A stretch of DNA of 64,000 nucleotides, from NCBI GenBank assembly GCA_021234155.1, contig JAJEKV010000102.1, positions 1,048,456 through 1,112,455 on the forward strand, given 5' to 3'. Origin of the DNA: Isoetes taiwanensis. Taxonomy: Eukaryota; Streptophyta; Lycopodiopsida; Isoetales; Isoetaceae. The notes beneath the pieces were generated by a model that saw nothing but the letters and a program-made list of their open reading frames with translations, was not told the DNA's origin and did no database searches. The translations under genes were made by a program, and so were the position numbers. Every line of letters starts with the position of its first letter. Positions within the stretch are counted from its first letter, which is position 1. This document shows, piece by piece, positions 14,007-44,503 of the stretch.

Positions 14007-14823
14007 TAAATTATAGGTTTACAAGTTTATTTACTTACTCTATACCGTGCTATATCATGGAACTTATCTAACCATTCTATAATATATCCTTTCTTTATAG
14101 TATTGTGGGTGGTATGTAACCTTGGTTTCTTTATAGTATTGTGGATGGTATGTAACCTTGGTTGAAGGATCAGTGGGTTTTCTAAAGGGCAACGGATTGA
14201 TGCGTTAGCATCTTGTTTTTTTAAATTTGTATTAAAACAAAGGGAAAGTTACTTCTAATAATCATAGCAAATTTTAGCCATAGCCAAACCAAACGTTTGC
14301 CCGAGGGGATGCCTTGTGGGACATGCCATTTAACACCATAATTTTATAGTGCACTTGTTCAGATTTGTCCAAAATCTTTGTAGGAATGTTGCCAAATGGT
14401 CTTCCCTTCCGGAGTACAAAAAGATTGCCCTTCAGCTTTGGAAAACATTGCAAACAGATGATTTGCATCCAAATATGTACATGTGATGTTATGTCGGAGC
14501 GCAACACTGAGGATTTCGTAAGATGTATCAATGCAACTCCAAATACATGAAAGAACGTTTCTAAACCTTGCAAATGTCGCCATCGAAGATCCTAAAAAGG
14601 CGGGGCCAAAAAATTTCAAGTTCCAAGCCGTTTTCCCATTTCTCCATATCTCAAAATGCTGATTTTGTTCGTTTCTGGAAGATCTTGTCTCTTTTGCAAA
14701 GATACACTAGTACCAGGTATGTTCTATATTAGCTGTTTTACAATTATTTCTAGCTTAAATCGCATCGGTTAGGACTCGTGAAGTCATTCACACTCTTTGG
14801 ATGAGGTACAGCAGGCAAAAACT
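14007..14823. other. PPR gene upstream region
   Basis: No gene recognised. A 36-bp tandem duplication lies at about 14091-14162 (unit TTTCTTTATAGTATTGTGG plus GGTATGTAACCTTGG). Overlapping minus-strand readings at 14274-14619 look coding-like but match no family I know. The last few hundred bases should hold the promoter and 5' leader of the PPR gene; I see no clear TATA box. Confidence 0.4.
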
Positions 14824-17319
14824 ATGGAAATGCCTGGACCCTTAGGCAGAAATCATGTCTACAGTCTCCTGCAGAACTGTGAAAGGAAAAATGATTTGCA
14901 GCTTAGCAGACATGTGCAATCCTACATAATTCAAAATGGACTGCACGAAATTGTTGCCTTAGGTAACTATTTGGTTCGAATTTTTGGTTATGCTGGAAGT
15001 TTGCCTGAAGCAAATCAAGCATTTGTCATGATTACACAACCAAGTGTGCACACCTGGGTTGCTGTTATTTTGGCAAATGTAAAGCGAGAACAGTGTGAAA
15101 ATGTGCTTAATCTGTACCAAAGACTGCAATTGTCTGGGATGAAAAATAGTAAGTCTGTATATATTGCTGTTCTAAAGGGATGTACAGCAAGCAGGTCCCT
15201 TTTGGGTGGAAGGATCGTACACGACCGGATTATCCAAGAAGACATTCAATCTGATGTTGTGGTAGGAAGTGCCATTGTTCATATGTATTCCAAATGTGGA
15301 AGCCTTCATGAGGCCATCTCGGTTTTCAAATCGTTGCCAGTTCAGAACGTGGTGTCATGGACTACAATGATTGTAGCTTATGCACAAAATGGTGCAGACA
15401 TCAAAGCCCTAGAATGTTTTGAAAAGATGCAAGTTGAAGGAATTACACCAAACGAGGTCACGTTCTTGGGAATCCTAAAAGCATGTGCCAATACACAGGA
15501 AATTGATCGAGGCAGGCATGCTTATGACAGGATCCTAAAATCTGGACTTCAACCACATGGTATTTTGGGAAATGCTCTGGTCGATATGTATTCAAAATGT
15601 GGTAGCTTGAGGGAGGCTGCAGATGTATTTGACAGATTGCCAATTCGAGATGTGGTTTCATGGGGGGCAATGATTGCAGGCTGCGTTGATCATGGCGAAG
15701 GGCCAATGGCCCTAGACTTGTTTTCAAAGATGGACGATCAAGGTGTCGAGCCAAATGAAATTACCTTTCTGGGCATCTTGAAGGCATGTACCCTTATGGG
15801 TGAAATAGAGCAGGGCAGGTTCATCCACGAGAAACTAATCAAACAAGGATTTCAATCAGAAATTGTCATGGGAAGCACTTTACTTGACATGTATGCAAAA
15901 TGTGGGAGCTTGGAGGAGTCGTATACAATATTTTTGGGACTTGTCAACCAAGATGCTGTTTCCTGGGGCGCAATGATCGCAGGATATGTACAGCATGGGA
16001 GGTCACCTGAAGCTTTACAATGCTTTGATCAGATGCAGCAAGGGGGAATAAAGCCGAATGAAGGTACATTTTCAAGTATATTGAAAGCATGCGCAAGCGT
16101 AGGAGCAATACAATTTGGCATTTTCGTCCATGAACATGTCATTGCAATGGGGATCAAATCAGATGCTGTAGGGAATAGTTTAATCACATTGTACTCCAAA
16201 TGTGGGGACCTAGACGTAGCATGTAACGTATTTGAAAGCTTGCCAAACCAAGATGTTGTGGCCTGGAATGCAATGATTGGAGGATATATTCATCATGAGG
16301 AGTATATATCAGCTTTAAGGTGCTTTTGTGAAATGCGCCAGGAATTTGGAGAACCAAATGAGATTACCTTTTTGAGCATTTTGAAGGTATTATCAAGTTT
16401 AGGAGCAGTAGAGGAAGGCAGACTCATCCACACCGAGATCCTGAAACATAATATTCAGCCAGATACTTCTATCGGGAGTGCTCTGATTGATATGTATGCA
16501 AAATGTGGGAGTCTATATGAAGCACATGAAGTGTTCTGCAAACTAAATTATCAAAATGTGATTTCATGGTGCACAATGATTGCAACGTATGCCCAAAATG
16601 AAGAGGTTCTTCTATCTCTGGAATATTTTATGAAAATGCAAGAAGAAGGTACTGACCCAAATTCAATTACATTTTTGACTGTGCTGGATGCCTGCGCAAG
16701 CATAGGGCTAATAGGACAGGGCAGGCTTGTCCATGATATGATCATTGAGAGGGGACTTCATCTGGATGTTGTGATGGGAAGCAGCTTAATTGATATGTAT
16801 GCAAGATGTGGGAGTCTACAAGAGGCATCAAAAGCTTTTGAGAGATTGCCGCGTAAGAATGCTGTGTCATGGGGTGCAATGATTTCAGGGTATGCCCAGC
16901 ATGGTGAAAGCACTTTTGCCTTGAAGTATTTTGAAACTATGCAACAGGAAGGCATAAAACCAAACGATGTGATGCTTACTAGTATCCTCATTGCATGTAG
17001 TCGTATTGGACTAGTAGATGAAGGCCGATGGTATTTTTATTCTACATCAGAAAGCTATGGCATTACATCAAGGATTTCACATTGTACATGTATTCTAGAT
17101 CTCTTAGGGCGTGCAGGACTTTTCAGCGAGGCAAAATGCTTAATTGAGAATACAATACAAACAGATATTATGGCATGGAGGGCTTTGCTCAGTGCTAGCA
17201 AGCTGCATGGCAATATTGAGATGGCCAGGCACTGCTTCAAACAAGTAGTAAATTTGGATGTGAACTGTGCTTCTGGACATGTGCTTATGTCAAACATGTA
17301 TGCAGTTTCTCATGTATAG
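14824..17319 (+). CDS. PLS-type pentatricopeptide repeat protein
   Basis: Intact, intronless, 831 residues. The first in-frame ATG is at 14824; the frame is closed by TGA at 14779. It carries tandem PPR motifs nearly from end to end in the repeating P-L-S order. The signatures VVSWTTMIVAYAQNG, NEVTFLGILKACA, and LVDMYSKCGSLREA recur seven to eight times with small changes. PPR proteins bind organellar RNA one base per repeat and direct C-to-U editing, splicing or processing in chloroplasts or mitochondria. The C-terminus has an E1-like segment (ISHCTCILDLLGRAGL, IMAWRALLSASKLHGN) but stops at SNMYAVSHV, so the end of the E region and any DYW deaminase are absent. It may act with a DYW partner in trans or be recently truncated; the 100 bp after the stop do not continue the family pattern. 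No obvious targeting peptide can be seen in the first 20 residues. Confidence 0.92.
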   Translation: MEMPGPLGRNHVYSLLQNCERKNDLQLSRHVQSYIIQNGLHEIVALGNYLVRIFGYAGSLPEANQAFVMITQPSVHTWVAVILANVKREQCENVLNLYQRLQLSGMKNSKSVYIAVLKGCTASRSLLGGRIVHDRIIQEDIQSDVVVGSAIVHMYSKCGSLHEAISVFKSLPVQNVVSWTTMIVAYAQNGADIKALECFEKMQVEGITPNEVTFLGILKACANTQEIDRGRHAYDRILKSGLQPHGILGNALVDMYSKCGSLREAADVFDRLPIRDVVSWGAMIAGCVDHGEGPMALDLFSKMDDQGVEPNEITFLGILKACTLMGEIEQGRFIHEKLIKQGFQSEIVMGSTLLDMYAKCGSLEESYTIFLGLVNQDAVSWGAMIAGYVQHGRSPEALQCFDQMQQGGIKPNEGTFSSILKACASVGAIQFGIFVHEHVIAMGIKSDAVGNSLITLYSKCGDLDVACNVFESLPNQDVVAWNAMIGGYIHHEEYISALRCFCEMRQEFGEPNEITFLSILKVLSSLGAVEEGRLIHTEILKHNIQPDTSIGSALIDMYAKCGSLYEAHEVFCKLNYQNVISWCTMIATYAQNEEVLLSLEYFMKMQEEGTDPNSITFLTVLDACASIGLIGQGRLVHDMIIERGLHLDVVMGSSLIDMYARCGSLQEASKAFERLPRKNAVSWGAMISGYAQHGESTFALKYFETMQQEGIKPNDVMLTSILIACSRIGLVDEGRWYFYSTSESYGITSRISHCTCILDLLGRAGLFSEAKCLIENTIQTDIMAWRALLSASKLHGNIEMARHCFKQVVNLDVNCASGHVLMSNMYAVSHV

Positions 17320-18957: not shown

Positions 18958-19452
18958 TTATATTTAGATATGGCATCTGCGTTCTTGGGTTCATAAGAAA
19001 ATCATCTTCAAATTTTGGGGAGGCAAGCCATATGCGCACTATAAAGCATGTTCACCTAGTCCAGGACCTCCACAACAGTATCCCTACCCAAAGAATGATA
19101 ATAAGATGACCTTTAATGTCCAGATAAGCCAACAAATATTACATGGACCATGCAGTAGATTCTCCAGTCCATTCCCAGGGAAGCTAGAGAACAGTTAAGG
19201 AAGGACAAAGCTTGTTTCCGTTGCTTCCGACCAAGGCACTGCATGCAGAAATGTCCTTTATGTCACCCAAGTAGCCCAGGCTATCTTGGCAGAAGTAGAG
19301 TGGGAGGAATTAAACGACCGTCCTGCCTTAGCCGAGGAGGAATCATGCAATTACATCCAAGGTGAGTCCTATATCTTTGCTGCTATAGTAACGGGAAATG
19401 CGGATAGTCATTCCTCCATCATATCCACTGTGGGTAATATAGACTCCAAGCC

Positions 19453-20133
19453 TTTTGCGTTCTCATTGACACAGGTAGCACATACAATTTTGCATCTCCT
19501 AGACCCTTGAGATCTAAACCACTGCCAGTTGGCTTAGCCAACGCAGCTTTCCGTCACACTCAGGGGCGCTGCCTCAACTTTGATATCCAATTGCCAGGAG
19601 CATTAGGGGCGTTGGGGGCTGAAATTATGAACATTGGCAAGTATGACCTTATCGTGGGTATGGAATTCTTGGCCGTTGCTAAGGCTAACATTGATTGGGA
19701 GAAACGACAGGTTACATTCAATGCCTCTAATGGTACACGCATCATCATATCAGGTAACTCAGTTAATCCACTCGTAAAATGCATTTCATTCAAACAATTG
19801 GATAGGGCAATCCGAAAGAATAAGGTTGCGTGTATTGTTCGACTTGCATCCGCCGAATCACTGTCCAAGCAAGAAGAAGTTATTTGTGCTTTATCCAATG
19901 CCATTGCTAGCTTGATTAGAGAGTTCCATTACCTTTTTCCTAATGAGATTAAAGAACTGCCATCTTTCAGGGGAGTAGAATGTAAAATTGCCTTTGCGCT
20001 TGGTATTAAGCCTACTAGTAAGTCTCCTTACCGTGTGAGTATCCCTGAACTAGCTGAACTTGAGAAGCAATTGCAGGACCTCCTTAAGTTGGGATTCAAC
20101 CAGCCGAGTGTCTACCAAGGGCACATGACTTAA
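19453..20133 (+). pseudogene. Gypsy B protease and RT N-terminus
   Basis: Open frame holding VLIDTGSTYNFA (retroviral-type aspartic protease active site, DTGS), YDLIVGMEFL and WEKRQVTF, the typical second half of the gypsy protease. It then runs into the start of RT (PYRVSIPELAELEKQLQDLL). The stop at 20131-20133 falls shortly before the next RT block, and the expected VLFVKKKDG region is missing there, so a short deletion or frameshift separates the two parts. Confidence 0.75.
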
Positions 20134-20754
20134 TGGACCAGCTTCAGGGAGCTAAGTATTTCTCCACGATTGATCTTCGATCAGGGTATCACCAGATAAG
20201 AATAAAAAAAGAGGACATCCATAAGTCAATCTTTAGGACGAGATATGGTCATTATGAATTCACTATGATGCCTTTTGGATTGATCAACGCTCTCGCCACT
20301 TTTATGCAACTCATATATTTTTCATGAGTTTCTTGATGAGTTTGTCATCATTTTCTTTGATGATATACTTATTTATAGCAAAACAAGGGAGGAGCATGAA
20401 TGCCAGCTTCGACTGGCTTTGCAAAAGTTGCACTGCCATAAGATTTTTGCTAAGTTTTTCAAGTGCAAATTTACGACCACGGGGGTGGGGTACCTAGGGT
20501 ATATTGTCTCTGTAGTTGGCATATCCACGGACTCGACAGAGATTGACGCAGTTAAGGAGTGGCCTGCACCTAAGAATGTTTCAAAAGTGAGAAGTTTTCT
20601 TGGCTTAGCCAGATATTACAGAAACTTTGTTAAGGATTTTGCCAAGATAGTGGCACCCCTCACCGACCTCACAAAAATGAGAAGGTTAAGGATTGGGTTA
20701 TACATTGGCAAGAGAAGGTACAATCGTGCTTCTAGCAGCTTAAGGATGCATTGA
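20133..20754 (+). pseudogene. Gypsy B reverse transcriptase core
   Basis: Contains [39 protein letters not shown] (the catalytic Y/F-x-DD box) and FLGLARYYRNFVKDF, in the order of a Ty3/gypsy RT palm and connection. It is split by a stop after QLIYFS (about 20327) and further frame changes around 20335-20420 and 20690. The catalytic aspartates are present but the gene cannot give a full enzyme. Confidence 0.8.
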
Positions 20755-26749: not shown

Positions 26750-29700
26750 TTTCAACATGTCATCTGGGTGGCTCAAACATACCACGCGGCTCCAACATGC
26801 CACCTAGGCTCCAACATGCCAAGGTGGCTCCAACATTCCACCTAGGCTCGAATATGCCAAGGTGGCTCAAACATGCCACCTAGGCTCCAACATGCCAAGG
26901 TGGCTCAAACATGCCAAGGTGGCTCCAACATGCCAAGGTGGCTCCAACATGCCATCTAGCCTCCTGCATGCCAAGGTGGCTCCAACATGCCACCTAGGCT
27001 CAAACATGCCAAGGTGGCTCAAATATGCCATGCAGGCTCCAACATGCCACCTAGGCTCCAACATGCCAAGGTGGCTCAAACATGCCAAGGCGGGCCACCT
27101 AGGCTCCAACATGCCAAGGTGGCTCGAACAGGCCATGCGGGCTCCAACAGGCCAAGGTGGCTCAAACATGCCATGTGGGCTCCAACATGCCACCCAGGGC
27201 AACCAACAAAGTGGCTCAAACATGCCACCTAGGCTCCAACATGCCAAGGTGGCTCCAACATGCCAAGGTGGCTCAAACATGACATGTGGGCTCCAACATG
27301 CCACCTAGGCTCCAACATGCCGAGGTGGCTCAAACATGTCAAGGTGGCTCGAACATGCCGAGGTGGCTCAAACATGCCAAAGTGGCTCAGACATGCCACC
27401 TAGGCTCAAACATGCCAAGGTGGCTCGAGACATGCCATGCGACTCCAACATGCCAAGGTGGCTCAAACATGCCATGTGGGCTCCAACATGCCACCTAGGC
27501 TCCAACATGCCAAAGTGGCTCAAACATGCCACCTAGGCTCCAACATGCCAAGGTGGCTCCAACATGCCACCTAGGCTCCAACATGCCAAGGTGGCTCAAA
27601 CATGTCATGTGGGCTCCAACATGCCACCTAGGCTCCAACATGCCTGGGTGGCTCAAACATGCCAAGGTGGCTCGAACATGCCACCTAGGCTCAAACATGC
27701 CAAGGTGGCTCAGACATGCCATGCGGGCTCCAACATGCCAAGTTGGCTCCAACATGCTCCAAAGATGCCAAGGTAGCTCAACATGCCACCTAGGCCCAAA
27801 CATGCCACCTAGGCTCCAAACATGCCAAGGTGGGCTTCAACATGCCATCACGGGCTCCAACATGCCAAGGTGGCTCAAACATACCACCGCTCCTCCAACA
27901 TGCCACCTAGGCTCCAACATGCCAAGGTGGCTCAAACATGCCAAGGTGGCTCCAATATTCCAACTAGGCTCTGAATATGCCAAGGTGGCTTAAACATGCC
28001 ACCTAGGCTCCAACATGCCAAGGTGGCTCAAGCATGTCAAGGTGGGCTCCAAAGATGCAACCTAGGCTCCAACATGCCAAGGTGGCTCCAACATGCCATC
28101 TAGGCTCCAACATGCCAAGGTGGCTCAAACATACAAAGGTGGCTCCAACATGCCATCTAGCCTCCTGCATGCCAAGGTGGCTCCAACATGCCACCTAGGC
28201 TCAAACATGCCGAGGTGGCTCAAACATGCCATGCAGGCTCCAACATGCCACCTAGGCTCGAACATGCCAAGGTCACCAAGGCTCCAATATGCCAAGGTAG
28301 CTCAAACATGCCACCTAGGCTCCAACATGCCAAGCTGGCTCAAACATGTCAAGGTGGCTCAATGGCTCAATCATGACATGCCTGCTCCAACATGCCACCT
28401 AGGCTCAAACATGCCACGTGGGCTCCAACATGCCAAGGTGGCTTTAACATTCCACTTAGGCTCGAACATGCCAAGGTGGCTCAAACATGCCACTAAGGCT
28501 CCAACATGCCACCTAGGCTCAAACATGGTGGCTCAAACAAGCCAAGGTGGCTCAAAACATGCCATCTAGGCTCCAACATGCCCACGTGGGTTCCAACATG
28601 CCACCTAGGCTCCAACATGACAAGGTGTCTCAAACATGCCACGGCTCCAACATGCCACCTAGGCTCCAACATGACAAGGTGTCTCAAACATGCCACCTAG
28701 GCTCCAACATGCCACCTAGGCTCCAACATGCAACCTAGGCTCCAACATGGCAAGGTGGCTCCAACATTCCACCTAGGCTCCATCATGCCAAGATGGCTCA
28801 GACATGACACCTAGGCTCCAATATGCCAAGGTGGCTCAAACATGCCATGTTGGTTCAACATGCCACCTAAGCTCTAACATGCCAAGGCGGCTCAAACATG
28901 CCATCTAGACTCCAACATGCCAAGGCGGCTGTAACATGCCAAGGTGGCTCAAACATGCCACCTAGGCTCCAACATGCCAAGGTGTCTCAAACATTCCACC
29001 TAGGCTCCAACATGCCAAGGTGGCTTAAACATGCCAAGGTGGCTCCAATAGGGCACCTAGGCTCTAACATGCCAAGGTGGCTCAAATATGTCGGCTCCAA
29101 CATGCCACGGTGACTCAAACATGCCAAGATGGTTCAAACATGCCATGCGAGCTCCAACATGCCAAGGTGGCTCAAACATGCCATGTAGGCTACAACATGT
29201 CAAGGTAGCTCAAACATGCCACCTAGGCTCCAACATGCCAAGGTGGCTTAAATATGCCAAGGTTTCTCAAACATGTCAAGGTGGCTCCAACATGCCACCT
29301 AGGCTTCAACATGCCAAGGTGGCTCCAACATGCCACCTAGGCACAAACATGCCAAGGTGGCTCAAACATGCCACCTAGACTCCAACATGCGCACGTGGGC
29401 TCCAACATCCCACCTAGGCTCCAACATGCCAAGGTGGCTCAAACATACCGCCTAGGCTCCAACATGCCAAGTTGGCTCAAAAGTGGCCCAAGCATGCCAA
29501 GGTGGCTCAAACATGCCACCTAGGCTCCAACATGCCAAGGTAGCTCTAACTTGCGACCTAGGCTCCAACATGGCCAGGTGGCTCCAACATGCCACCTAGG
29601 TGCCATCTTGGCTCCAACATGCCAAGGTGGCTCAAACATGCCAAGGTGACTAAAACATGCCACACAGTCTCAAACATGCCACGCAGGCTCAAACATGCCA

Positions 29701-30155
29701 CGCAGGCTCAAACATGCCACGCATGCTCTAACATGCCTAGGTGGGTCAAACATGCCATTTGGGCTCCAACATGCCACCGAGGCTCCAACATGCCAAGGTG
29801 GCTCAAACATGACACCCCTAGGCTCCAACATGTCAAGGTGGCTCCAACATGCCACCTAGGCTCCAACATGGCAAGGTGGCTCAAACATGCCACCTAGGCT
29901 CCAACATGTCAAGGTGGCTCAAACATGCCAAGGTGGCTCCAACATGCCACCTAGGCTCCAACATGGCAAGGTGGGCCAAGGTCGCTCAAACATGTTGCCT
30001 AGGCTCCAACACGCCAAGGCGGCTCAAACATGCCACGTGGGCTCCAACATGCCACCTAGGTTCAAACATGCCAAGGTGGCTCAAACATGCCAAGGTGGCT
30101 CAAACATGCCGAGGTGGCTCCAACATGCCAAGATGGCTCAAACATGCCAAGATAG
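26750..30155. repeat. 19-bp satellite array with two alternating unit types
   Basis: About 175-180 tandem 19-bp units. The main types are ACATGCCAAGGTGGCTCAA and ACATGCCACCTAGGCTCCA, with minor ACATGCCATGTGGGCTCCA-like variants. Because 19 is not a multiple of three, every frame encodes a 19-residue protein repeat, which explains the many open frames on both strands; none is likely to be a gene. The core of one type is nearly the reverse complement of the core of the other (10 of 11 bases), so a transcript could fold on itself many times. Confidence 0.97.
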
Positions 30156-31559
30156 GAAGGCTCAGATGTTTGAATTGTCGGATGCCCCAAATTGAAAAAG
30201 ATAAGGGAAAAAAAAGCTTAAGTTACCCAGACCAAGGCAAAGGTGAAAACAATGCACGTGCCAAATTTATAGTTTTCGATAAAAATTAAGGGAAACAAAG
30301 CTTAAGTTACCCAGACCAAAGCAAAAGGAAAAAAAAATACACCTGTCAAATTTAAAATAAACCTGTCAAATTTATAGTTTTCAATAAAAACCAAGTAAGG
30401 GCTTGACCCTTAAAAACATCGGGTAATCTTAGAGGTTATAAAAAAATGCAATATTGAAGAAATTCAAAAATTTTCAACGGCAGAGATCAACGGCCGAGAT
30501 CTCGATCTCGGTCCTAACATCCTATTGGATGATTTTTTTTTTTGTGTTTCTTTCTATTCTTCAGTTCTTGGTCGCTTGCTGCTTCCTGTGTTTGGTGCCT
30601 CCGCCATACCGCCTTGGCGCCTTACCGCCTCCGCCTCCGCCTACCCGCCTTGCGAATCCATTCTGCCTTGGCGGATATGAAATAATATGCCAAATCGAAA
30701 GCATCATTGCTTCAAATGACCAAGTCCGGCGCCCAAGTCCAGGTCCATTTTTGAGAATGTTGAGTCTGTTAGGTTTCTTTAAAACCAAATGCAATGGCGT
30801 TTTAGTCTGCAAGAAAATATTCATGAGGACCTAATATTTAAGGAGAGATGGATTCAGGCCAGATTTGGCCCCAGTCAGAAAGGGTAAGCAGCATGGATAT
30901 TTAAGAGCTTTTGAGTGATACTTGTTTTCCGCGTTATAGCCGTGAATAGGACCCTTATATGTAGACTATTCTTCTTTTGCAGAAGAAACCTATAATAAAA
31001 CTGTTGCAAAGGCTTGGAAAGCTATGTTTCTAGTACCAGGAGAAGCACAATGGCAAAAGAGAACCAAGGGGAGCGGTTTATTCTAGGATTCATGCCTTCC
31101 TTGGACATTCCTTTGTCCTTGCGCAGGCGACACCAAATCCAAGTTTTTATTTTTAAGCATCTATGTTCTATTTTTGTGTTCCTGTTGTGAACGGTTCAAT
31201 ATAAACCATCTTGTATGTTTTTTGTATAAATATTATTGATAATAATAAAGCAATGGTCTTTTCCATTCTTTGTTTGTGGTACTCATTTTCTAAAAATGTC
31301 AAATTGAGACCTTAGTTTTGGAAGATTGTCTTGAATCATCTATAATCTATAATCTAAGGGCTTAATAAAAAAGTTACTAACAATAACAATAGCAAAACAT
31401 AAACGGAATATGCATGGTTGCACTTCTCAAATTAAAAAATACATATACAATTAAGAAGAAAACATATACGTTTTGGAAGAAATGTCAGCCATTTAAAAAC
31501 AAAACATATATGTTTTAAGGAAAAAATGTTAACAATTTTGAAGAAACAACATTAAGTTG
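30156..31559. other. CACTA interior after the satellite
   Basis: Starts with a duplicated block (about 30197-30288 and 30289-30399) sharing GCTTAAGTTACCCAGACCAA and AAATTTATAGTTTTC. A GC-rich stretch at 30590-30665 reads as CCGCCT repeats. A plus-strand open reading of 126 codons (30454-30834) has a hydrophobic segment and a Pro run but matches nothing I know; it may be captured DNA or chance. Confidence 0.4.
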
Positions 31560-33239: not shown

Positions 33240-34020
33240 GCCAAGCTATTTCTTTTGCAACTAATGAGCTAGCAGTGTACTCAACCTCAGCAGATGACAT
33301 AGCTACTGCATTCTGCTTTTTTCTTCTCCAACATATTAAACTTCCACCAAAGAATACAAGGTATCAACTTGTAGACTTTCTGGTAGACAAATCGCCTCCT
33401 CAATTTGCATCACTGTATGCACATAAGATTAAATCTTTACCATTGTAAGTTATCCCTAAATCTATAGTCCCTTTCAAATATCTGATAACCCTTTTTGCTG
33501 CTATCCAATATATCTTTCCTGCATCATGGCAATGTCTGCTCAACAAATTTACAACAAATGATATATCAGGTCTGGTATTATTTGCTAGATAAAGCAAACA
33601 ACCAAAGAGCTCCCTGCATGGAATATTTTGCATGTCTTCTTTTGTGTATGTATGAGTTACTTCTGCAGACAGTTTGTGACCTAGAACTATGGGTGTTCTC
33701 ACAAGTCTAGAGTCTTGCATATTAAATCTCTTGAGCATATTTATAATGTTTTTACCTTGACTCAATTTCAGAATCTTCTCCGCTCTATTTCTATAAATTT
33801 CGATGCCAAGGAAATGTTCAAGCTTTTCTAAAGCAGACATTTGGAACCTTTGTTTCAGGACATCCTTACAGAGATTTAGACATTCCATTTTGCTGCGTGC
33901 CATTATGCAGTCATCTACATATAGCGCTATAATGCATATGTTGTTCCCACCTTGATATTTATAGAGATTTCCATCATTCTTGAGCCTTTCAAATCCTTGC
34001 TCCCTTAAGAACTTATCCAT
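33240..34020 (-). pseudogene. Copia RT C-terminal half and RNase H N-terminus
   Basis: A long open stretch (33400-34020) with NNICIIALYVDDCIMARSK (YVDD catalytic box), FLGIEIYRNRAEKILKLSQ, NNTRPDISFVVNLLSR and CAYSDAN. It is followed in other frames by RKSTSGYL-like and SSAEVEYTASSLVAKEIAWL sequence of RNase H up to the Tourist element. The active-site residues are intact; truncation is by frame changes only. Confidence 0.85.
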
Positions 34021-34562
34021 ACATAATTACACTCTCTTGGGAATTGTTTCAGCCCATATACTGCTCTATGTAATCTCCAAACCATGTCTTTATTTTGCTC
34101 AAAGCCAAGTGGTTGCTTCATGTATATTTCTTCTTCCAATTTAGCATTTAGGAATGCTGTCTTGACATCCATGTGATGTAATTCTCTCCCATGCAATTGC
34201 TATTGAGAATAAAGTTCTCAAACTCGTCAGTTTTACAACTGGAGAGAATATTTCTCCATAATCTTTACCTTTTTCTGTGTAAAGCCCTGAGCAACAAGTC
34301 TGGCTTTGAATCTTTGATTTCCATTTACATCATTCTTTATCTTAAAAATCCATTTACTGCCTACAACATTCTTGTCATTTGGACAATCAACCAATTTATA
34401 AGTCCCTATATGTTTAAAGGAGTCCAATTCTTCTGTCATGGCAGCCACCCACTTGTCTTTATCACAAGAATCCATAGCTTCCTCAAATGAATTTGGGACT
34501 GTTACATTCTCTAAGAGTGCTAGCATATGCTCTGGATCATTATAAGCTTTATCGAGTCCCAT
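34005..34562 (-). pseudogene. Copia RT N-terminal half
   Basis: Two pieces in different frames. 34233-34562 has SFEEAMDSCDKDKWVAAMTE, NVVGSKWIFKIK and RFKARLVAQGFTQ, the start of the RVT_2 domain. 34005-34196 has [20 protein letters not shown] and VYGLKQ. A frame change lies at about 34200-34235 and another at about 34020. Confidence 0.85.
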
Positions 34563-35223
34563 ACTTCTTCCACTTTCTAGTCTCCCATATTGGCCTTCTA
34601 CAAATCCAACACTTTCTTTTTGTCTTTCAACCTGAGTTTTCCCTTTGTTCGTGGGTGCTGGTTTTTATATTTCTTCATTGAATTTTTGTACTTCAGGAAC
34701 GTCATCTTTTGCTGAATTTAAAGCTGCATATATTACATGAGTATCACAATGTATTTGTGATGATTGAACCTCCTCCTCATCATCAATATCGATGTCCTTT
34801 TGTGTCTTTTTTATTGATGACATTTTTTATTTCTTCTCGTTTTCCTTTTTATGAACATGTCTGTCTTTATAAAAAGTTTTCTCATCAAACACAATATCTC
34901 TATTAATGACAACCTTGTTTAATTTAGGAACATATATACGATAGCTTTTGATTCTTCATCGTATCCGACAAGGTATCCTATATCAGCCTTGTCATCTAAT
35001 TCACGTCTAATTTCTTTGGGTACATGTATATAACTCAAACATCTATATGCTCTGAGAATATCATAATCAATGCTTACCTTTTGATCAGACCACACAAGTT
35101 CAGGAATGTTCCCTTGCAAGCTCGATGAAGGTAATCTATTTTTGAACCATCACGACAGTTTTGAGTGCTTCTTCCCACATCTTATTTGGCAGCCCAGAAG
35201 AATTCAACATGCATCTTACAGCA
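34563..35223 (-). pseudogene. Copia integrase C-terminal region
   Basis: 34919-35119 reads MQGNIPELVWSDQKVSIDYD, LRAYRCLSYIHVPKEIRREL, DIGYLVGYDEESKA, the conserved segment downstream of the copia integrase core. The remaining linker to RT (34563-34918) is broken, acidic and Ser/Glu-rich on the minus strand, as is usual. Confidence 0.75.
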
Positions 35224-35625
35224 TCAAGCAAAGTTTGATTCTTCCTCTCTGCCGCTCCATCTTGTTGTGGAGTTAACCTGCATGTTAATTGTCCTTTTTA
35301 TTCCATTTGCAATACAATGCTGCGTGAATTTCCCTGATAGATATTTACCACCCCTATCTGATCTAATACATCTAACTTTTCTTCTAGTTTGTCTTTCCAT
35401 TTCTATAACAAATAATTTCAGAGCGTCCAAAGCTTGATTCTTCCTCTTTAGACTGTAGCACTTGCATTTTCTGCTATGGCCATCAATAAACGTGATGAAA
35501 TGTCGTTTTCCAGGTCTAGTTACAATATTCAGTGGCCCACATAAATCAGTATGGATGAGGTCCAAAATTCCTTGTGCTCTATGCTTTGATCTCAAAAATG
35601 GAAGTCTACTTATCTTTCCTAACAT
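35224..35625 (-). pseudogene. Copia integrase catalytic core
   Basis: DLIHTDLCGPLNIVT, RHFITFIDGHSRK and VRCIRSDRGGKYLSGKF give the two aspartates of the DDE core. The region of the catalytic Glu (expected in QNGVAERKN) is altered to a frame-shifted TTRWSGREEESN, so the core is not intact. Confidence 0.8.
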
Positions 35626-36391
35626 ACATCCTTCACAGATATGCTATTTTTCATCATCAAGCAACCTGTAATTTATAATACCTTTCTTTGCCAGGAATTT
35701 AACATTATTGTAATATGTATGTGCCAATCGCTTGTGCCAATTTTCCATATTAGGGATCAGAACAGTGCTTATCACAGATCACACCATTCATTTGAAACAA
35801 GTTGCCAACATGCTTGGCAAAGAACCTCATGTCATTATTCAAGTAAACTCTACATGCTTGGTTATCAAACACAAGTTTATAACCACGATCCATCGATTGA
35901 CAAACTGAAATCAGATTTTTTATAAGAGTTGGTATGCACAAAACATTTGGAACATCCACTACGTTTCCTTTTAAATATAGCAGCTGCAAAAAACTGCACC
36001 CTTCTATCATTTGCATCTCCCCATTTCCAACTTGAACATGCTTTGATTTGGCTGCTGCAACATTCTTGAACAGATCAGTAGATGTGACTACTGATCTCTC
36101 AGCTCCGCTATCAACTACAATCACATTATGCTTATGATTAGTTTGTGCATCAATCTTAGAATCATTCATAGAGCATACAAGTTTTACCTCATTATTATCT
36201 AGATCACCTTCCTTTTCTGATTTTTCTTCCTCTCTTGCAAGGTGAATGCTAGAAGCACGATCTCTTCTTACTCCTCCTCTTCCCCTTTGGATTGTATTGC
36301 TTGAACTTGCTCTGCCTCTTCTGGGACTTGAATATTTTGCTGCCATGTGCCCTTTTCCACCGCAATTATAGCATGTAAATTCCACATTCAA
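35626..36391 (-). pseudogene. Copia gag zinc knuckle and protease
   Basis: ATG at 36391. The knuckle at 36332-36373 reads CYNCGGKGHMAAKY; the last Cys has become Tyr (TGT to TAT). After an Arg/Ser-rich linker comes the protease active site VVDSGAERSVV and LLYLKGNVVDVPNVLCIPTL. The frame ends near 35750, and the GAG-pre-integrase zinc finger that should follow is broken. Confidence 0.8.
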
Positions 36392-36400
36392 CTTAGAACA

Positions 36401-37313
36401 ATTTGATTTATCTTCTTATCATTATATGAAGATAAATTCAATTGTCAAAACCAAATAAGGGAGAGAGAGAAAATGAGACAAACTGAAAGAAAAGCCACAT
36501 CTGGGCATCTCCACTAAACACAAAACCAGAATACAATAAGCCACATCTACGCATTTCCACTAAACACAAAATCAGAATACAAAAAACCACATCTAGGCAT
36601 CTAAACACAAAACCAGAATACACTGCTAATCCACTAAACAAAAAACCAGAATACAATGCTCCATAATACAATGTTGATGATCAGTGAATCTATTATGGCG
36701 GGGATTAAAAAACCTCGCCCTTTTGGGTTTTCGAGGAAAAACGATGACTATAATAGTGACACTAACCAATAGGGATCTAAACTGTCTAAGTACAATAACA
36801 GCTGAACAAATCTGATCACGATGAGACAAGCAAAGTACATGCTCTTCTCCACAACTAGTCAAGTCGAAAAAACCTCCCAAACTATACTCCAAAATTATCA
36901 TGGTGGATCACGCCTCTACATAAACTATAATCCCAAAACATGCTCCAAGTCAACTTGATAGAGCTAAAGAAGACACTCTGCAACATAAATCCACCCAGCA
37001 AAACAAGGGAAACACTAGGGTCTCATCACAACATTGTAGCACAAAGCACAAGACATGAGGGTCTTCTAATACAAGGCTTTCCAACATTGGCACGAGGGCC
37101 AAAATATACAATCTCATAACAGCAAGTGGCATGAGGGCCAAAAGTCACAACCAAGTACACTAGCATGAGGGCCCTTTTCATGACTAGGCTTCAAATGAGT
37201 AAAATTATCCCAATGGGTAGGATGGATAGGTGAACATTTAGAACAATAAGGAACTAGGATGGAACAAGGTAACTAAGGCTTTCAGGAAATCCAAAGCACT
37301 ATGCAGTGAGGGA
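36401..37313. repeat. Irregular tandem repeats at the left of gypsy C
   Basis: At 36486-36665 a 42-48-bp unit containing ACTAAACACAAAACCAGAAT occurs about four times. A single related copy lies beyond gypsy C at about 44530-44575, so C inserted next to or within this host repeat. At 37040-37180 the motif GCATGAGGGCC recurs at irregular spacing. No gene seen. Confidence 0.6.
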
Positions 37314-37318
37314 GGGAG

Positions 37319-38971
37319 TGTGACGCTCCCTACTAAATATACGGCACCCGGCCGTACACTCGGCAGGAAATCCCCCATCCGGTCCTTCAACCGCACGAGC
37401 CCTCCGTCTATCCCGCACTCTGAGAGGATTGTAGTGCGGGAAGGGGACACGAAGGTGTCTTGCGTGCCCTTCCCCTATGGGCTCCTATCACAGCGGAAGC
37501 ACAAACATCGTCAGAACTAGCAATAACTATACATCACACTACCTCGAAGGGTAGCTCATCCACATATCCATAGGTGCAAAGAACATAAACATATGCCATA
37601 AAACATGAGAGCTCCTACTCGTGGCTCCGACACATAAGGAAGTCGACTGACTGGATAGGCCTCAAGATAGAGCAGACCGAATCATGACAATGGCGGGGCT
37701 GGCATAAGACAATGGCTAGGGTTGACCACTCCATCCGTCCCTCCTGTGCATACATTGCAGATGGGCTCAATCAGGCTCTGGCATGACTCTAGCCTTCCGG
37801 ATACGTAATCCCATGGCATCCCCCATCGGGACTACTCCAGGTTGCATCTCCCTGGTCCGTTGAGGCAGGAAGGGTTGCATCTCCCCTTCCCGGGGTCTAC
37901 AGGCTCCTCGAGCGACTAGAGAATCGTGGCGACACACGATTCATACCCGACTGAACCCCCCAAAACAAGAGCCAAGCTGACACTTGCAACTCCTGAGAGG
38001 CAGGGCTGCAGCATTGCCCCAGGAGGTGTCGGACCCATGCTCGGCCCACACGAAGTGACCGACCATAAGTCTAGCCCACTATGGGATCCCCCGAAGCCCC
38101 CACTCGGCAGGGATCCTCCATCCGCGTTGCCTCTAGCCCCGTTATGTAGTGCTGAGTCACATCATAGCCTCCATAGCCCGGTGGGTTCCTATGCACAGGC
38201 CGCAACTAATAGGAACTAAGGGATCTAGACTAAGAGCATACTACATAATAGCTACTAGGTCTCTACCCCCCTTCCCAATACAAGAGGAGCAAACATGATC
38301 ACCCAACATCACATAACATCATATCATGATAACATAGTAAGAACATCTTAACCTAATCATACATATCTAACTTACAGTTAGGGTTCCTTGATTAGGGTTC
38401 GAGATGTTCAACAAAGGTTCTAGGATGGCTCTACTCTAGATACAATATACAGACCCATCTGGAATGCTAACTTCCAGATGAACTACTATGAACTCTACTC
38501 CACCTACCTGCTCCAGAAGCGCTTCCTCCCATCCCTGGTGTCTCCATTGCTCCTTGACGGGGTCGAGGTCGTGCTCCCTCTATGATCATACACACACTTG
38601 AGGGGCTGCCCGGGCCCAGCTATGCTACGACGAGCGATGCTCAAAACGGGGGTTTGAAAAGGTAGATGAGTGTTCAAAAAAGCTAGAGTCAGGGAAAAGG
38701 GTCTAGGGTTAGGGTTTGAGCCAATATAGGTGAGGGTCCACATGGGATGCCACGTGGCACCACTAGGATGGGGCCGTGTGGCGGTTGCCCAATAGGATAA
38801 GGTCATGTGGAAATGGGCCTTATCCTAAGGTTATCTAAGTTAACAATTAACTTAGATATGCACCCATTGCCACTTTCTAAGGTATACAAGGCTCCCAAAG
38901 ATGGAAGCTTGTATCGTGGATGGGTCCGAGAAATATAATGTATTTATGGCGATATTCCCTCGAACGCCACA
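37319..38971 (-). repeat. Gypsy C 3' LTR
   Basis: 1653 bp by my boundaries and colinear with the 5' LTR at 42870-44498, with scattered substitutions and a few indels (for example around 38584-38700). Short open readings inside it are repeated in both LTRs and are not genes. It is distantly related to the LTRs of elements A and B. Confidence 0.9.
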
Positions 38972-39807: not shown

Positions 39808-40341
39808 CTAACCTCCTGGCAAGTCGGGGTCGACCAAGTCGGAGACGACTCGCCCATCAAACTCCTTCATAAACTCTGGGTATTGCTTCTCCAAATCCTG
39901 CTTCAATACCCATGTCGCGTCTTCCACGGGCAAGTGTTTCCATTTGACCAAATACTGGAGGAACTGAGACCTCCTAGTCTTCTTGAATGACTTATCAAGA
40001 AGTAACTCAGGCACAATTTCAACTTGCTCTTCTGTCATTTCCAACAAAGTTGGAGTATCCAAGACCTCATCAGGGTTAGGATTGTGCCTTTTCAATAAAC
40101 TTACATGGAAGACTTTGTGGACCTTAAGGTGCGCCGGGAGATCCAACTTGTAGGCCTGAGAGCCCACCTTCTCCAAGATCTTGAATGGACCGGCCTACCT
40201 AGGGGCAAGCTTCTTACAATTCCCAATCCGAAGCTTAGCTTGCTTCACCTTGATCTTCAACCACACGCTGTCGCCTACCTTGAACTCCCTTACGGTTACA
40301 GTGCTCGCTTGGCTTCACTCTTACGCCGACTTCTTTCATTG
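39808..40341 (-). pseudogene. Gypsy C integrase tail with chromodomain
   Basis: Continuation of the integrase after a frameshift near 40342. It reads REFKVGDSVWLKIKVKQAKL and KKLAPR, then a TAG (about 40196) in place of a Trp codon, then VGSQAYKLDLPAHLKVHKVF and a chromodomain: FLQYLVKWKHLPVEDATWVL with DLEKQYPEF. The two core Trp residues are present. The first aromatic-cage position seems non-aromatic (VEIVPELL), as in the weaker plant group II chromodomains. Chromodomains at this place bind modified histone H3 tails and direct integration. Confidence 0.8.
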
Positions 40342-41400
40342 CTAATAAGTACCCCTTACTTCTTCCACCGCTGCCGTGATATCTCCTAGCATCTGCTGGG
40401 ATACTTCAACCTTTGACACAGGATTGTGCCAAGTATCCGGGGTTAGGCACTGGTACCCGTAATTTACCATGAAGGGAGACATCTGGGATGACTCCTGCTT
40501 GGCACTGTTGTAGGCGAATTCTACCAAGTGGATGTACTCATCCCACTTGGATTGCTTATTCCACACATAACTTCTAAGCATATCTTCGATGATTCGATTC
40601 GTGCGCTCCGTATGGCCATCCGTCTGCAGATGATAAGCCGTGCTCATGGAGAGCTTCGTCTGAATGGTGCTAAAGAGGTCCTGCCAAAAAGCACTCATAA
40701 ACTTGGAATCTCTGTCTGAAGTTATCTCCCGAGGCATGCCATGGAGTCTAAAAATCTCCCTTACAAATAACTTGGCGGTATCTAATGCTGTGTCCGTAGT
40801 TCTGCAAGGTACAAAGTGTGCCATCTTAGATAATTTGTCTACGACAACCATTAATGCATCTTTGCCTCGTAGAGTTCGGGGAAGTCCTGTGATAAAATCC
40901 ATACTTACCACTTCCCATTTTGCATTCGGCACTGCTAAAGGTTCCAAGGCTCCCGGAATTCGAAGCTGCTCTGCCTTAGTCTGCTGGCACAACTGGCATT
41001 CCTGAATATATCTGGCTATCTGTTTCTTCATTCCTGGCCAGAAATAGCTACTTCGAATCTTGAAGTAGGTCTCCATAAACCCCGGGTGCCCTGCTATTGG
41101 GCTGTTGTGTGTGTCGTGAAGAATTAACTTCCTTACACCTGATGATTCGGGCACACACAACTTATGCTTATGGTACAACAAGTTGCCTTCCTTCCTATAA
41201 TGCTTGAAGGCTTCCCGTTCCTTATCTGTTCTAGCCTCCTTAGAAAGGCTTTCCCATACCTCCTTGAAATCACCATATGATGGTAATGTTTCCTCAATTT
41301 TCTTGCCATACCCACTCGAAAGAGTAGATATAGCATTACAATGTGTTCTCGTCTCAAGGGGTCTTCTAGAGAGAGCCAGGCGCTCAAACGGCGCCTTCCT
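40342..41400 (-). CDS. Gypsy C integrase zinc finger and catalytic core
   Basis: Open minus-strand frame. It has an N-terminal HHCC zinc finger (HDTHNSPIAGHPGF, then CQLCQQTK) and a DDE core: VVSMDFITGLPRTLRGKDAL (first Asp), EITSDRDSKFMSAFW (second Asp), and DGHTERTNRIIEDML (Glu). All three catalytic residues remain. The frame is open further upstream through GNLLYHKHKLCVPES to about 41615, where a TAG occurs, and it joins gag-like sequence without any RT between. The core could be functional, but the C-terminal tail is frame-shifted. Confidence 0.88.
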   Translation of the reverse strand, partial: RKAPFERLALSRRPLETRTHCNAISTLSSGYGKKIEETLPSYGDFKEVWESLSKEARTDKEREAFKHYRKEGNLLYHKHKLCVPESSGVRKLILHDTHNSPIAGHPGFMETYFKIRSSYFWPGMKKQIARYIQECQLCQQTKAEQLRIPGALEPLAVPNAKWEVVSMDFITGLPRTLRGKDALMVVVDKLSKMAHFVPCRTTDTALDTAKLFVREIFRLHGMPREITSDRDSKFMSAFWQDLFSTIQTKLSMSTAYHLQTDGHTERTNRIIEDMLRSYVWNKQSKWDEYIHLVEFAYNSAKQESSQMSPFMVNYGYQCLTPDTWHNPVSKVEVSQQMLGDITAAVEEVRGTY

Positions 41401-41640
41401 AATCAGGAGATTAGTACACTGTTGGAAGTGCCTAATCTCCTGAAAAATGTGGGCATGCCGAGAGTTAGGCCCATGGTGGACCTTCTTCGGCTTCTCCGGA
41501 CGTGGAGGTGGCGGCTTCGGCTGGTTCTTCTTCGGCCGGCCTCCTTTGACAAACCTCTCTACGTTCTGCTTGTAGTACCAGTCATTGTACCTCGTCCAGT
41601 GACGAAGGTACTCCTAGTACGCCTTCAGGCGGTGCTTGAA
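41400..41640 (-). pseudogene. Gypsy C gag C-terminal part joined to integrase frame
   Basis: In the integrase frame, minus strand from 41640: FKHRLKAY, stop (TAG), EYLRHWTRYNDWYYKQNVER, a KPPPPRPEKPKK linker and IFQEIRHFQQCTNLLIRKAP, then directly CNAISTLSSGYGKK, which belongs to the segment before integrase. A deletion junction that removed protease, RT and RNase H must lie near 41340. This is capsid-like sequence I cannot place in a named domain. Confidence 0.55.
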
Positions 41641-42313
41641 TTCGCGTTCCCTCACGGAGTGCGAATGGCCGCTCGCCCACCTTCTGCTTCTTCACTACCT
41701 TCGGTGGCTTGGGCCACTTTGGGTAGGGTGGGCGTGCGTTGGGGTCTGAAGATTCCCCAACGACTTCGTGCTCCTCCTCCTCCCCGTTCTGCTCTTCCTC
41801 ATCTCCACCTCCTTCCCCCTCGTCCTCGTCAACTGCCTCGCGTCGGTGAGGTTCCTCGATCACGACGGTCCCGCGAGGCCTATCGTTTCTCCTCTTCGTT
41901 CTCCGCTCCTTCTCCCTAAGCTCCCTCTCCCTCTTCTTTCTCGCGGTTGTTTCTTCTGGCCACTCCGCCACCTTGTTCTTGCCCTTCTTCTTGGGTGAAG
42001 AAGGGCCCGGCTGCTCCATCTGGTGTTGCTGCTCCTGTTCTTCATCCTGCTCCTCCTCTCGGCCTGAGAGGTCACCCACGTGAACTATCTCGCCGGTCTG
42101 CTGGGACTGGGCCGCCGAAGAACTAATGCTGCTGGTAGGGCTGCCCTCCTCCGAAGGGTGGAAGGTGTCATCGGTGGAGGAAGACGCCTCGTCACCTGGC
42201 TTTGGCCGAAGGTGTGGCGGAACCTGCTTACCATGACGACCTGCTGCTACCTGTGCCATTGAGAGTGTGGGTCTCTCACCAAACTTCCTGGCTGTCTGCT
42301 TGGTGCGTGCCAT
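41582..42313 (-). CDS. Gypsy C gag-like protein with histone H3-like N-terminus
   Basis: 243 residues from the ATG at 42313. The frame is also open 35 codons upstream, but that part is Pro/Ser-rich leader sequence. The protein begins MARTKQTARKFGERPTLSMA: residues 2-10 are identical to histone H3 residues 1-9, including K4 and K9, after which similarity ends (Phe replaces S10). A Ser/Thr/Gln-rich part, a basic stretch (ARKKRERELREKERRTKRR, nuclear-signal-like), an acidic Glu/Gly run and a Pro/Lys region follow. There is no zinc knuckle. A frameshift near 41665 probably separates it from its original C-terminal part, which continues in the integrase frame. It is expressed as the first protein after the 5' LTR. 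I cannot assign a standard gag family. Confidence 0.7.
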   Translation of the reverse strand: MARTKQTARKFGERPTLSMAQVAAGRHGKQVPPHLRPKPGDEASSSTDDTFHPSEEGSPTSSISSSAAQSQQTGEIVHVGDLSGREEEQDEEQEQQHQMEQPGPSSPKKKGKNKVAEWPEETTARKKRERELREKERRTKRRNDRPRGTVVIEEPHRREAVDEDEGEGGGDEEEQNGEEEEHEVVGESSDPNARPPYPKWPKPPKVVKKQKVGERPFALREGTRIQAPPEGVLGVPSSLDEVQ

Positions 42314-42856
42314 ATTTAACGATCTAGGAAATGGATGACGTAAGGCTGAGCAAGAGAGATAAGGTGGAGGAAAAGGTTGGGGGGAAATGAGGTGCTCTAG
42401 GGAATATTCTCTTACCATTAATATGCCTACTTATTAGCCCCCCTTATTAATTACTTCAATATAACTTAATTATTAATATATGTTTAATTATTAGTGTGTA
42501 TTTTTAATTTCGTATTATACTTTAAATTTTCAAATTTTCCTAATAGTTTGGAGTGTTAATTATGAATTTGCACCATTTTTCACTCAGGTCTCGGATTGGC
42601 ATGATTCTTCGACCCATTTTAGGTGAAATTTGATGCAGATGCATAATTTTCATTTCAAATTTACTAGAAGATGAATTTGACTCGTTCTTTTCTTCGTCTA
42701 ACACTTAACCTATTTTCGGACCCACTACTTAGGAGAAAACTTTTCGCCTATTTTTCGAGGTTCGATGGTGGAAATTTTCATTTCGCACCCTATCAGACCT
42801 GTTAGACTAGTTTCATGGTTATGGTCAGTGCTAGTTCCTGGTCAACCAAGAACTTT

Positions 42857-42868
42857 GCTCTGATACCA
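42857..42868 (-). promoter_or_regulatory. Primer binding site for tRNA-Met
   Basis: TGGTATCAGAGC on the minus strand, one base from the end of the 5' LTR. This is the standard plant LTR-retrotransposon site pairing with the 3' end of initiator tRNA-Met to start minus-strand DNA synthesis. Confidence 0.93.
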
Positions 42869-42869
42869 T

Positions 42870-44498
42870 TGTGACGCTCCCTGCTAAATATACGGCACCC
42901 GGCCGTACACTCGGCAGGAAATCCCCCATCCGGTCCTTCAACCGCACGGGCCCTCCGTCTATCCCGCACTCTGAGAGGATCGTAGTGCGGGAAGGGGACA
43001 CGAAGGTGTCTTGCGTGCCCTTCCCCTATGGGCTCCTATCACAGCGGAAGCACAAACATCGTCAGAACTAGCAATAACTATACATCACACTACCTCGAAG
43101 GGTAGCTCATCCACATATCCATAGGTGCAAAGAACATAAACATATGCCATAAAACATGAGAGCTCATACCCGTGGCTCCGACACATAAGGAAGTCGCCTG
43201 ACTGGATAGGCCTCAAGATAGAGCAGACCGAATCATGACAATGGCGGGGCTGGCATAAGACAATGGCTAGGGTTGACCACTCCATCCGCCCCTCCTGTGC
43301 ATACTTTGCAGATGGGCTCAATCAGGCTCTGGCATGACTCTAGCCTTCCGGATACGTAATCCCATGGCATCACCCATCGGGACTACTCCAGGTTGCATCT
43401 CCCTAGTCCGTTGAGGCAGGAAGGGTTGCATCTCCCCTTCCCGGGGTCTAGAGGCTCCTCGGGTGACTAGAGAATCGTGACGACACACGATTCGTACCCG
43501 ACTGAACCCCCCAAAACAAGACCCAAGCTGACACTTGCAACTCTTGAGAGGCAGGGCGGCACCATTGCCCCAAGAGGTGTCGGACCCATGCTCGGGCCAC
43601 ACGAAGTGACCGACCATAAGTCTAGCCCACTATGGGATCCCCCGAAGCCCCTACTCGGCAGGGATCCTCCCTCCGCGTTGCCTCTAGCCCCGTTATGTAG
43701 TGCTGAGTCACATCATTGCCTCCATAGCCCGGTGGGTTCCTATACCAGGCCGCAACTAATAGGAACTAAGGGATCTAGACTAGGAGCATACTACATAATG
43801 GCTACTAGGTCTCTACCCCTCTTCCTAATACAAGAGGAGCAAACATGATCACCCAACATCACATAACATCATATCATGATAACATAGTAAGAACATCTTA
43901 ACCTAATCATACATATCTAACTTACAGTTAGGGTTCCTTGATTAGGGTTCGAGATGTTCAACAAAGGTTCTAGGATGGCTCTACTCTAGATACAACATAC
44001 AGACCCATCTGGAATGCTAACTTCCAGATGAACTACTATGAACTCTACTCCACCTACCTGCTCCAAAAGCGCTTCCTCCCATCCCTGGTGTCTCCATTGC
44101 TCCTTGACGGGGTCGAGGTCGTGCTCCCTCTATGATCATACACACACTTCGGGGGCTGCTGCGCCAGGCTATGCTACGACGAACGATGCTCGAAACGGGG
44201 TTTCGAGTGCGTAGATGAGTGTTCAGGAGCTAGAGTCAGGGAAAAGGGTCTAGGGTTAGGGTTTGAGCCAATATAGATGCCACGTGGCACCACTAGGATG
44301 GGGCCGTGTGGCGGTTGCCCAATAGGATAAGGTCATGTGGAAATGGGCCTTATCCTAAGGTTATCTAAGTTAACAATTAACTTAGATATACACCCCTTGC
44401 CACTTTCTAAGGTATACAAGGCTCCCAAAGGTCGACTTGTATCGTGACGGGTCCAGGAATATACGTATTTATGGCGTATATTCCCCTGGAACGTCACA
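42870..44498 (-). repeat. Gypsy C 5' LTR
   Basis: 1629 bp, from CGTCACA at 44498 (element 5' end, minus strand) to 42870. Its first 55 bases on the minus strand form the GTGACGTTCCAGGGGAATAT hairpin also seen in LTRs A and B. It should contain the promoter for element C transcription; no clear TATA box was picked out. Confidence 0.92.
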
Positions 44499-44503
44499 GG
44501 GAG

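Follow-up and report, generated by a model that had tools for sequence, protein, structure and literature searches.

A histone H3 variant is the first open reading frame of a high-copy chromodomain LTR retrotransposon in Isoetes taiwanensis

The window analysed here is a 64,000-nucleotide stretch of Isoetes taiwanensis DNA, and it carries on its minus strand an LTR retrotransposon whose LTR ends we set from sequence. The 5' LTR (42870..44498) and the 3' LTR (37319..38971, with its right end placed by the sequence CGCCACA) are 95.1% identical, with 54 mismatches and 9 gap openings over 1642 columns, and the pair is flanked by a 5 bp target site duplication, GGGAG, at 37314..37318 on the left and 44499..44503 on the right. 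Next to the 5' LTR is a primer binding site (TGGTATCAGAGC, 42857..42868), which we take to be of the initiator-Met tRNA type, followed by a leader (42314..42856) and by the open portion of a first reading frame, ORF1 (41582..42313; 243 aa and a stop). Beyond ORF1 lies the integrase part of pol, with its H2C2 zinc finger and core (40342..41376; Pfam E values of 9.9e-20 and 1.2e-9), and at the integrase C-terminus there is a chromodomain (39856..40011; Pfam Chromo, E 2.9e-12), as an earlier note on this DNA had claimed. The best named relative of pol is an Adiantum nelumboides protein (54%). The C-terminal chromodomain of the integrase, the order gag-PR-RT-INT, the LTRs and the presumed Met-tRNA-type primer binding site are the features of a chromovirus, the position of INT in this order being given by the window and one of nine other copies.

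Elsewhere in the window are long open frames of a repeated unit like SNMPPRLQHAKVAPTCQGG (26808–30289), apparently a minisatellite array, and about 1.6 kb of low-complexity DNA (12332–13974) in which each strand has long frames, those of one rich in F, P, L and S and those of the other in K, R, E and G. An open frame of 845 aa at 14782–17319 presumably encodes something resembling a pentatricopeptide repeat protein, and fragments at 473–1024, 19438–20754 and 33400–36415 resemble, by eye, other gypsy-like and copia-like elements.

Read on the minus strand from 42313, ORF1 begins M ARTKQTARK FGERPTLS..., and the residues after the Met are exactly residues 1–9 of histone H3. The earlier note had described this match, in codons 1–10 (42284..42313), and translation bears it out; its further statement that the similarity stops after nine residues does not hold. 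When three canonical H3 sequences were compared with the window by tblastn, the two best places among the matches listed were both ends of one protein, namely 41571–41377, which aligns H3 5–71 with an E value of 4.4e-5, and 42313–42185, with E values of 0.004–0.010, the next-best place having an E value of 0.14 or worse. The first of these places falls in the remainder of ORF1, which lies in another frame (41377..41613) and comprises the end of the tail and the alphaN-alpha1 part of H3 (EIRHFQQCTNLLIRKAPFERL). This alphaN-alpha1 piece has 165 PDB matches at E ≤ 1, all 60 of those listed being H3 or CENP-A, and its score against H3 was reached by none of 2000 shuffles. In the protein database we found no relatives of the piece among the three candidates compared, and none of the tail at E ≤ 1 among word-sharing proteins of about 134–425 aa.

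The window copy of ORF1 is broken by a frameshift near 41640 (placed by inspection), by a TAG at 41614–41616 and by a deletion, whose junction at 41376..41377 puts H3 alpha1 against pol close to where RNase H and integrase meet. Missing from this copy at that junction are the remainder of the H3 fold, a second reading frame (ORF2), gag, PR and RT. The junction is placed by the match starts of pol relatives, 23 of the 120 listed starting exactly at ORF residue 80, 87 later and 10 earlier (residues 49–77), and we take the ten early starts to be weak extensions. From the H3 pieces together with these match starts we conclude that the window copy keeps the opening part of an H3-like gene, joined to pol by a deletion, and it would thus be a defective descendant of the elements described below. 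Its Pfam Histone score by itself (14.9–19.1 bits) lies under the cut-off of 26.4.

A search of the 1.66-Gb source genome with ORF1 as query gave 152 matches, the best 150 of which were scored out of 10,668 first-look candidates, and most of the matches aligned from residue 1. A single capture into one dead copy was ruled out by these 152 places. We sampled 90 of them (L010–L039 and L049–L108) and could place the start segment in 88; as they were taken from the best 150 scored matches, the sampled copies are biased toward those that resemble the query. Leaving out five copies in which fewer than seven of the ten start residues match gives a set of 83. In this set ORF1 is open over at least 360 aa and ends in its own stop in 27 copies, and 26 of these (365–385 aa) have an H3-like C-terminus, L092 being the one open copy without it. 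Among the 30 loci first cut out, seven carry a complete frame of 372–377 aa that ends in the full H3 fold.

In the unlesioned copies, then, the fold is complete, and ORF1 opens with MARTKQTARK and closes with a full H3 fold; between the two, about 275 residues that are new and include basic and acidic tracts take the place of residues 10 to about 47 of H3. ORF1 of copy L013 scores 101.7 bits against Pfam Histone (E 4.3e-29) and matches 176 PDB sequences at E ≤ 1e-3, all 60 of those listed being H3 or ‘histone domain-containing’ chains; since its fold passes the Pfam cut-off and resembles H3 most closely, it classes as a core histone H3. Identity to canonical H3 is 59–63% over 83–87 aa in seven copies, and ten copies have a mean identity of 63% to one host H3 gene across 88 columns. 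Across 61 stop-free copies the H3 residue is the commonest at 55 of the 88 fold positions. R63, K64, R69, R72, R83, C110, H113, K115, R116, T118, D123, L126 and R129 are kept as in H3 in 92–100% of copies; R49 is kept in 82% of the stop-free copies, and R53 is mostly H. At 14 of 15 positions that we take to be the DNA contacts and H3-H3' contacts of H3, the commonest residue in the same 61 copies is that of H3.

Capture of a CENH3 gene was considered because of the sequence EIRHFQ..TNLLI in the alphaN-alpha1 piece. CENH3 is, like ORF1, an H3 variant with a diverged and long tail, and in plants its loop 1 is longer than that of H3. The intact copies of ORF1 have no such longer loop, their fold aligning to H3 over 88 columns ungapped, and this explanation was dropped for that reason.

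The place of ORF1 within the element was examined in nine 10-kb copies on nine contigs, chosen to have an open ORF1 and ending at 10 kb. Matches to the LTR of the window lie directly 5' of ORF1 in all nine, and the 12-mer of the primer binding site follows the LTR in eight. Downstream come, in this order, ORF2 (eight of nine), gag (eight of nine, some partial), PR-RT (five of nine) and integrase (one of nine). The full succession ORF1-ORF2-gag-PR/RT is seen in four copies (L041, L042, L045 and L047) and parts of it in the other five, among them L048, a copy with PR-RT and no ORF2. In L044 (3140–4690, minus strand) the ORF2 region between the histone frame and gag consists of two open stretches of 320 and 196 aa. 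ORF2 matches no Pfam family above the cut-off. The earlier note had taken ORF1 for a gag-like protein, which proved to be wrong; Pfam finds no gag or Ty3 capsid domain and no CCHC motif in ORF1, these being present in downstream frames, and gag is a separate frame (Retrotrans_gag, E 4.8e-18) followed by one with PR and RT. That ORF1 might be a gag whose tail arose by chance or as a mimic was ruled out by the H3 fold in the neighbouring frame and by the presence of gag elsewhere in the element. The peptide stands at a likely translation start, as all 83 copies have a purine at -3 with a G at +4, and in 68 of them the 150 nt before the start contain no ATG in the same frame; the window copy has such an ATG at 42418, and short upstream ATG frames also occur in its leader.

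Since canonical H3 genes are present in the same genome (15 places at 95–97% identity to canonical H3), one might suppose that ORF1 belongs to a host histone cluster, or to pseudogenes, situated beside retrotransposons and outside them. The layout makes this a very remote explanation, as ORF1 lies between the LTR and primer binding site and ORF2 or gag in nine copies on nine contigs, and the window copy is enclosed by paired LTRs and their 5 bp duplication. A separate search for RT, with 81 matches scored out of 37,711 candidates, yielded 82 places, and setting these beside 150 of the 152 ORF1 places also speaks against a host cluster. An ORF1 place lies 2–9 kb upstream on the same strand for 21 of the 82 RT places, against one in the opposite-strand control and two in the wrong-side control.

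Nor is the peptide a product of chance. The N-termini of gag proteins are often basic, and a fortuitous or convergent match in such a terminus might be imagined, but the genome holds 1,051 sites (516 and 535) of DNA coding exactly for MARTKQTARK, host H3 genes included, whereas the reversed pattern gave none on either count (0 and 0). With a full H3 fold downstream and gag encoded elsewhere, the probability of such a coincidence is negligible, and the earlier note was right to think the match unlikely by chance. Among about 70 of these sites whose codons were spelled out, some use recurrent codon sets that are rare in the sampled copies, and the genome may contain other families or subfamilies that carry an H3.

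Outside this genome, degenerate MARTKQTARK-coding DNA was found at nine loci in 257 Gb of GTDB genome contigs. In seven the frame continues as H3, and we read these, from their sequence, as probable eukaryotic contamination; in the other two it does not, ending after 28 and 19 aa. The records of L002, L003 and L005–L009, labelled as bacterial MAGs, contain H3 genes or parts of them. In the IMG/VR viral contigs we found neither degenerate MARTKQTARK-coding DNA nor relatives of ORF1.

The earlier note had held that absence of the motif from other copies, a translation start elsewhere in them, or lack of purifying selection on the motif would count against its reading. The motif is exact in 60 of 88 copies of the same genome, and individual residues are kept in 79 (R2), 82 (T3), 84 (K4), 83 (Q5), 87 (T6), 74 (A7), 84 (R8) and 85 (K9) of them, whereas residue 11 is F in only 52. 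By the Nei-Gojobori method on pooled pairs, which share ancestry and have high dS (0.8–1.2), dN/dS for codons 1–10 is 0.044 (83 rows; 0.030–0.057 in 60 row bootstraps), against 0.246 for codons 11–30, 0.148 for codons 195–258 (78 rows) and 0.082 for the fold (73 rows). Dropping the five poorly matching rows lowers the value for codons 1–10; with all 88 rows kept it is 0.094, which is no lower than that of the fold, and codons 11–30 give 0.245. In the 27 open copies the values are 0.038 for codons 1–10, 0.264 for codons 11–30, 0.121 for codons 195–258 and 0.047 for the fold (26 rows), and in the other 61 copies they are 0.122, 0.243, 0.164 (49 rows) and 0.103 (46 rows) respectively. The open copies therefore show that within this genome the N-terminal peptide is about as constrained as the fold, and both far more so than codons 11–30. 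The constraint acts on the protein, since the copies differ in synonymous codon choice at most of the ten positions, although little at R8 (AGG in 81 of 83). On these comparisons the H3-tail peptide of ORF1 looks protected by selection, and inside this genome it comes through the checks that the earlier note had set.

These values bear on whether the H3 gene could be a passenger, carried by chance and with no role for the element. Sections of PMC13317346 report that plant LTR retrotransposons often carry host sequence, those of PMC6317226 describe many extra ORFs without a known role, and a full open ORF1 is missing from 57 of the 83 sampled copies. Such a passenger would nevertheless be hard to reconcile with the low dN/dS of all three parts of ORF1 in open copies (codons 1–10, codons 195–258 and the fold) in the face of much synonymous change, or with the recurrence of an H3-fold frame upstream of gag in a second family, and we consider it improbable.

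The second family came to light with canonical H3 as the query against the same genome. Of the best 150 places scored out of 9,022 candidates, 135 are H3-like at 69–84% identity, besides the 15 host H3 genes. Four of the 135 were examined, and three have a frame of 409–413 aa, the fourth (L112) being broken. The frame has a different N-terminal part, starting MA[IN]TK and not MARTKQTARK, and an H3 fold 78–83% identical to H3; that of L110 matches Pfam Histone with an E value of 8.1e-41. Directly after it comes a 386-aa frame without a Pfam family and then a gag-PR frame, the layout of the second family being that of this one copy. Places of the second-family ORF1 are L109:454–1884, L110:345–2045, a minus-strand frame of L111 at 245–1555 from its end, and L113. 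As to whether H3 was captured once or twice, a tree of 30 rows and 88 columns, unrooted and with its bootstrap unsettled, has three groups, namely family 1, family 2 and H3, and the two families share only two majority residues that none of the four H3 rows has, Y54F and a C-terminal P.

An H3 variant is thus ORF1 of a chromodomain LTR retrotransposon, at high copy and with low dN/dS. With a probability of roughly 0.85, we propose that this LTR retrotransposon encodes its own H3 variant, captured from the host and kept by selection as its first ORF. A Ty3/gypsy chromovirus lineage would have taken up a host H3 gene and kept it upstream of ORF2 and gag-pol. Capture has the most support among the steps that we infer, and support decreases with each one after it: the ORF1 protein would be made from the element; it would pair with host H4 and enter or dock on nucleosomes, the contact residues being mostly kept; host K4/K9 writers and readers would handle its R2–K9 peptide; and chromatin or particles containing it would either be harder to silence or be anchored more firmly on chromatin for integration. 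This last step is suggested by the absence of S10 and of K14–K36 from the ORF1 tail. What fits the sequence best is a variant that would meet K4/K9 enzymes and readers and escape marks further in.

For the use of the K4/K9 peptide three versions were weighed. The fold might serve only for dimerisation or nuclear import, with the peptide acting as a decoy or tether that binds K4/K9 readers and writers and the protein entering no nucleosome. H3 1–9 is kept about as strictly as the fold, with residues 10 to about 47 lost, as such a role would allow; a pure tether would, however, need none of R63, K64, R69, R72, R83, K115 and R116, all of which are kept (R53 is not), and we regard this version as unlikely, if still worth serious attention. 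The element might also recognise itself, its chromodomain binding the methylated ORF1 tail and tying integrase complexes to it, as the earlier note had suggested. Both proteins are indeed encoded by the same element. In a by-eye alignment to HP1, at what we assume to be the cage positions, the chromodomain (EIVPEL...YLVKWKHL) has I and L at positions 1 and 3, leaving only the tryptophan of the three aromatic cage residues that mark a type I chromodomain, the H3K9me reader. Judged by sequence, it fits the group II pattern E-I-V-P..W-K-H-L, and group II chromodomains are described in parts of PMC3350952 and PMC6317226 as having partly lost the cage residues and having an unknown binding partner. 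Because two of the three cage residues are missing, self-reading is doubtful, the weakest version of K4/K9 use and in our estimate distinctly improbable. The most far-reaching version, which we put at somewhat less than even odds, is that the elements encode a nucleosomal H3 variant whose constrained K4/K9 peptide would set or evade marks on the elements themselves or on their insertion sites; this would then be the first known case of a transposable element that carries and maintains a core histone.

Several known systems resemble ORF1 in part. Core histones are encoded by viruses, as in bracovirus H4 and the histones of Marseilleviridae and medusavirus. There too a core histone fold whose tail is altered or long is the product of a mobile genetic agent, but these are DNA viruses, whereas ORF1 belongs to an LTR retrotransposon and is an H3 with residues 1–9 exact. 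Histone mimics, of which the influenza NS1 tail is one, are short motifs of otherwise unrelated proteins. Like ORF1 they present a copy of the H3 N-terminal peptide to host enzymes; the earlier note had placed the peptide among them, which must be revised, as a mimic is a motif in a non-histone protein and the ORF1 peptide belongs to a protein that is a histone by its fold. Host coding sequence inside LTR elements of plants is described in portions of PMC13317346 (Bs1, Rider, and the rice and sorghum surveys), which also report selection on many captured genes; unlike those captures, ORF1 is a whole core-histone gene that forms the regular first ORF of a high-copy family, and the word ‘histone’ occurs 0 times in that review. 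The eORF-5'F of plant Ty3/gypsy elements is likewise an extra ORF between the 5' LTR and gag, for which the parts of PMC6317226 in question name the plant mobile domain, Transposase_28 and Athila ORF-1; its main text has the word ‘histone’ a single time, in connection with chromodomains, and never mentions ‘fern’. A search of open-licence PubMed Central, which leaves most subscription papers and bioRxiv preprints outside, gave no papers on a transposon-encoded histone. Extra ORFs have been described before, as have captured genes and histones of viruses, but to our knowledge no transposable element has been known to have a core histone among its regular genes.

Transposon silencing runs largely through H3 marks. 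If our reading is true, the nucleosome itself is where an element with its own H3, in which K4 and K9 are kept and the rest of the tail is exchanged, would act on silencing. In plants of this kind, ChIP and mass spectrometry of H3 may be complicated, because the first nine residues of ORF1 are those of host H3. It would also follow that a core histone can turn into a selfish gene, at high copy in one genome.
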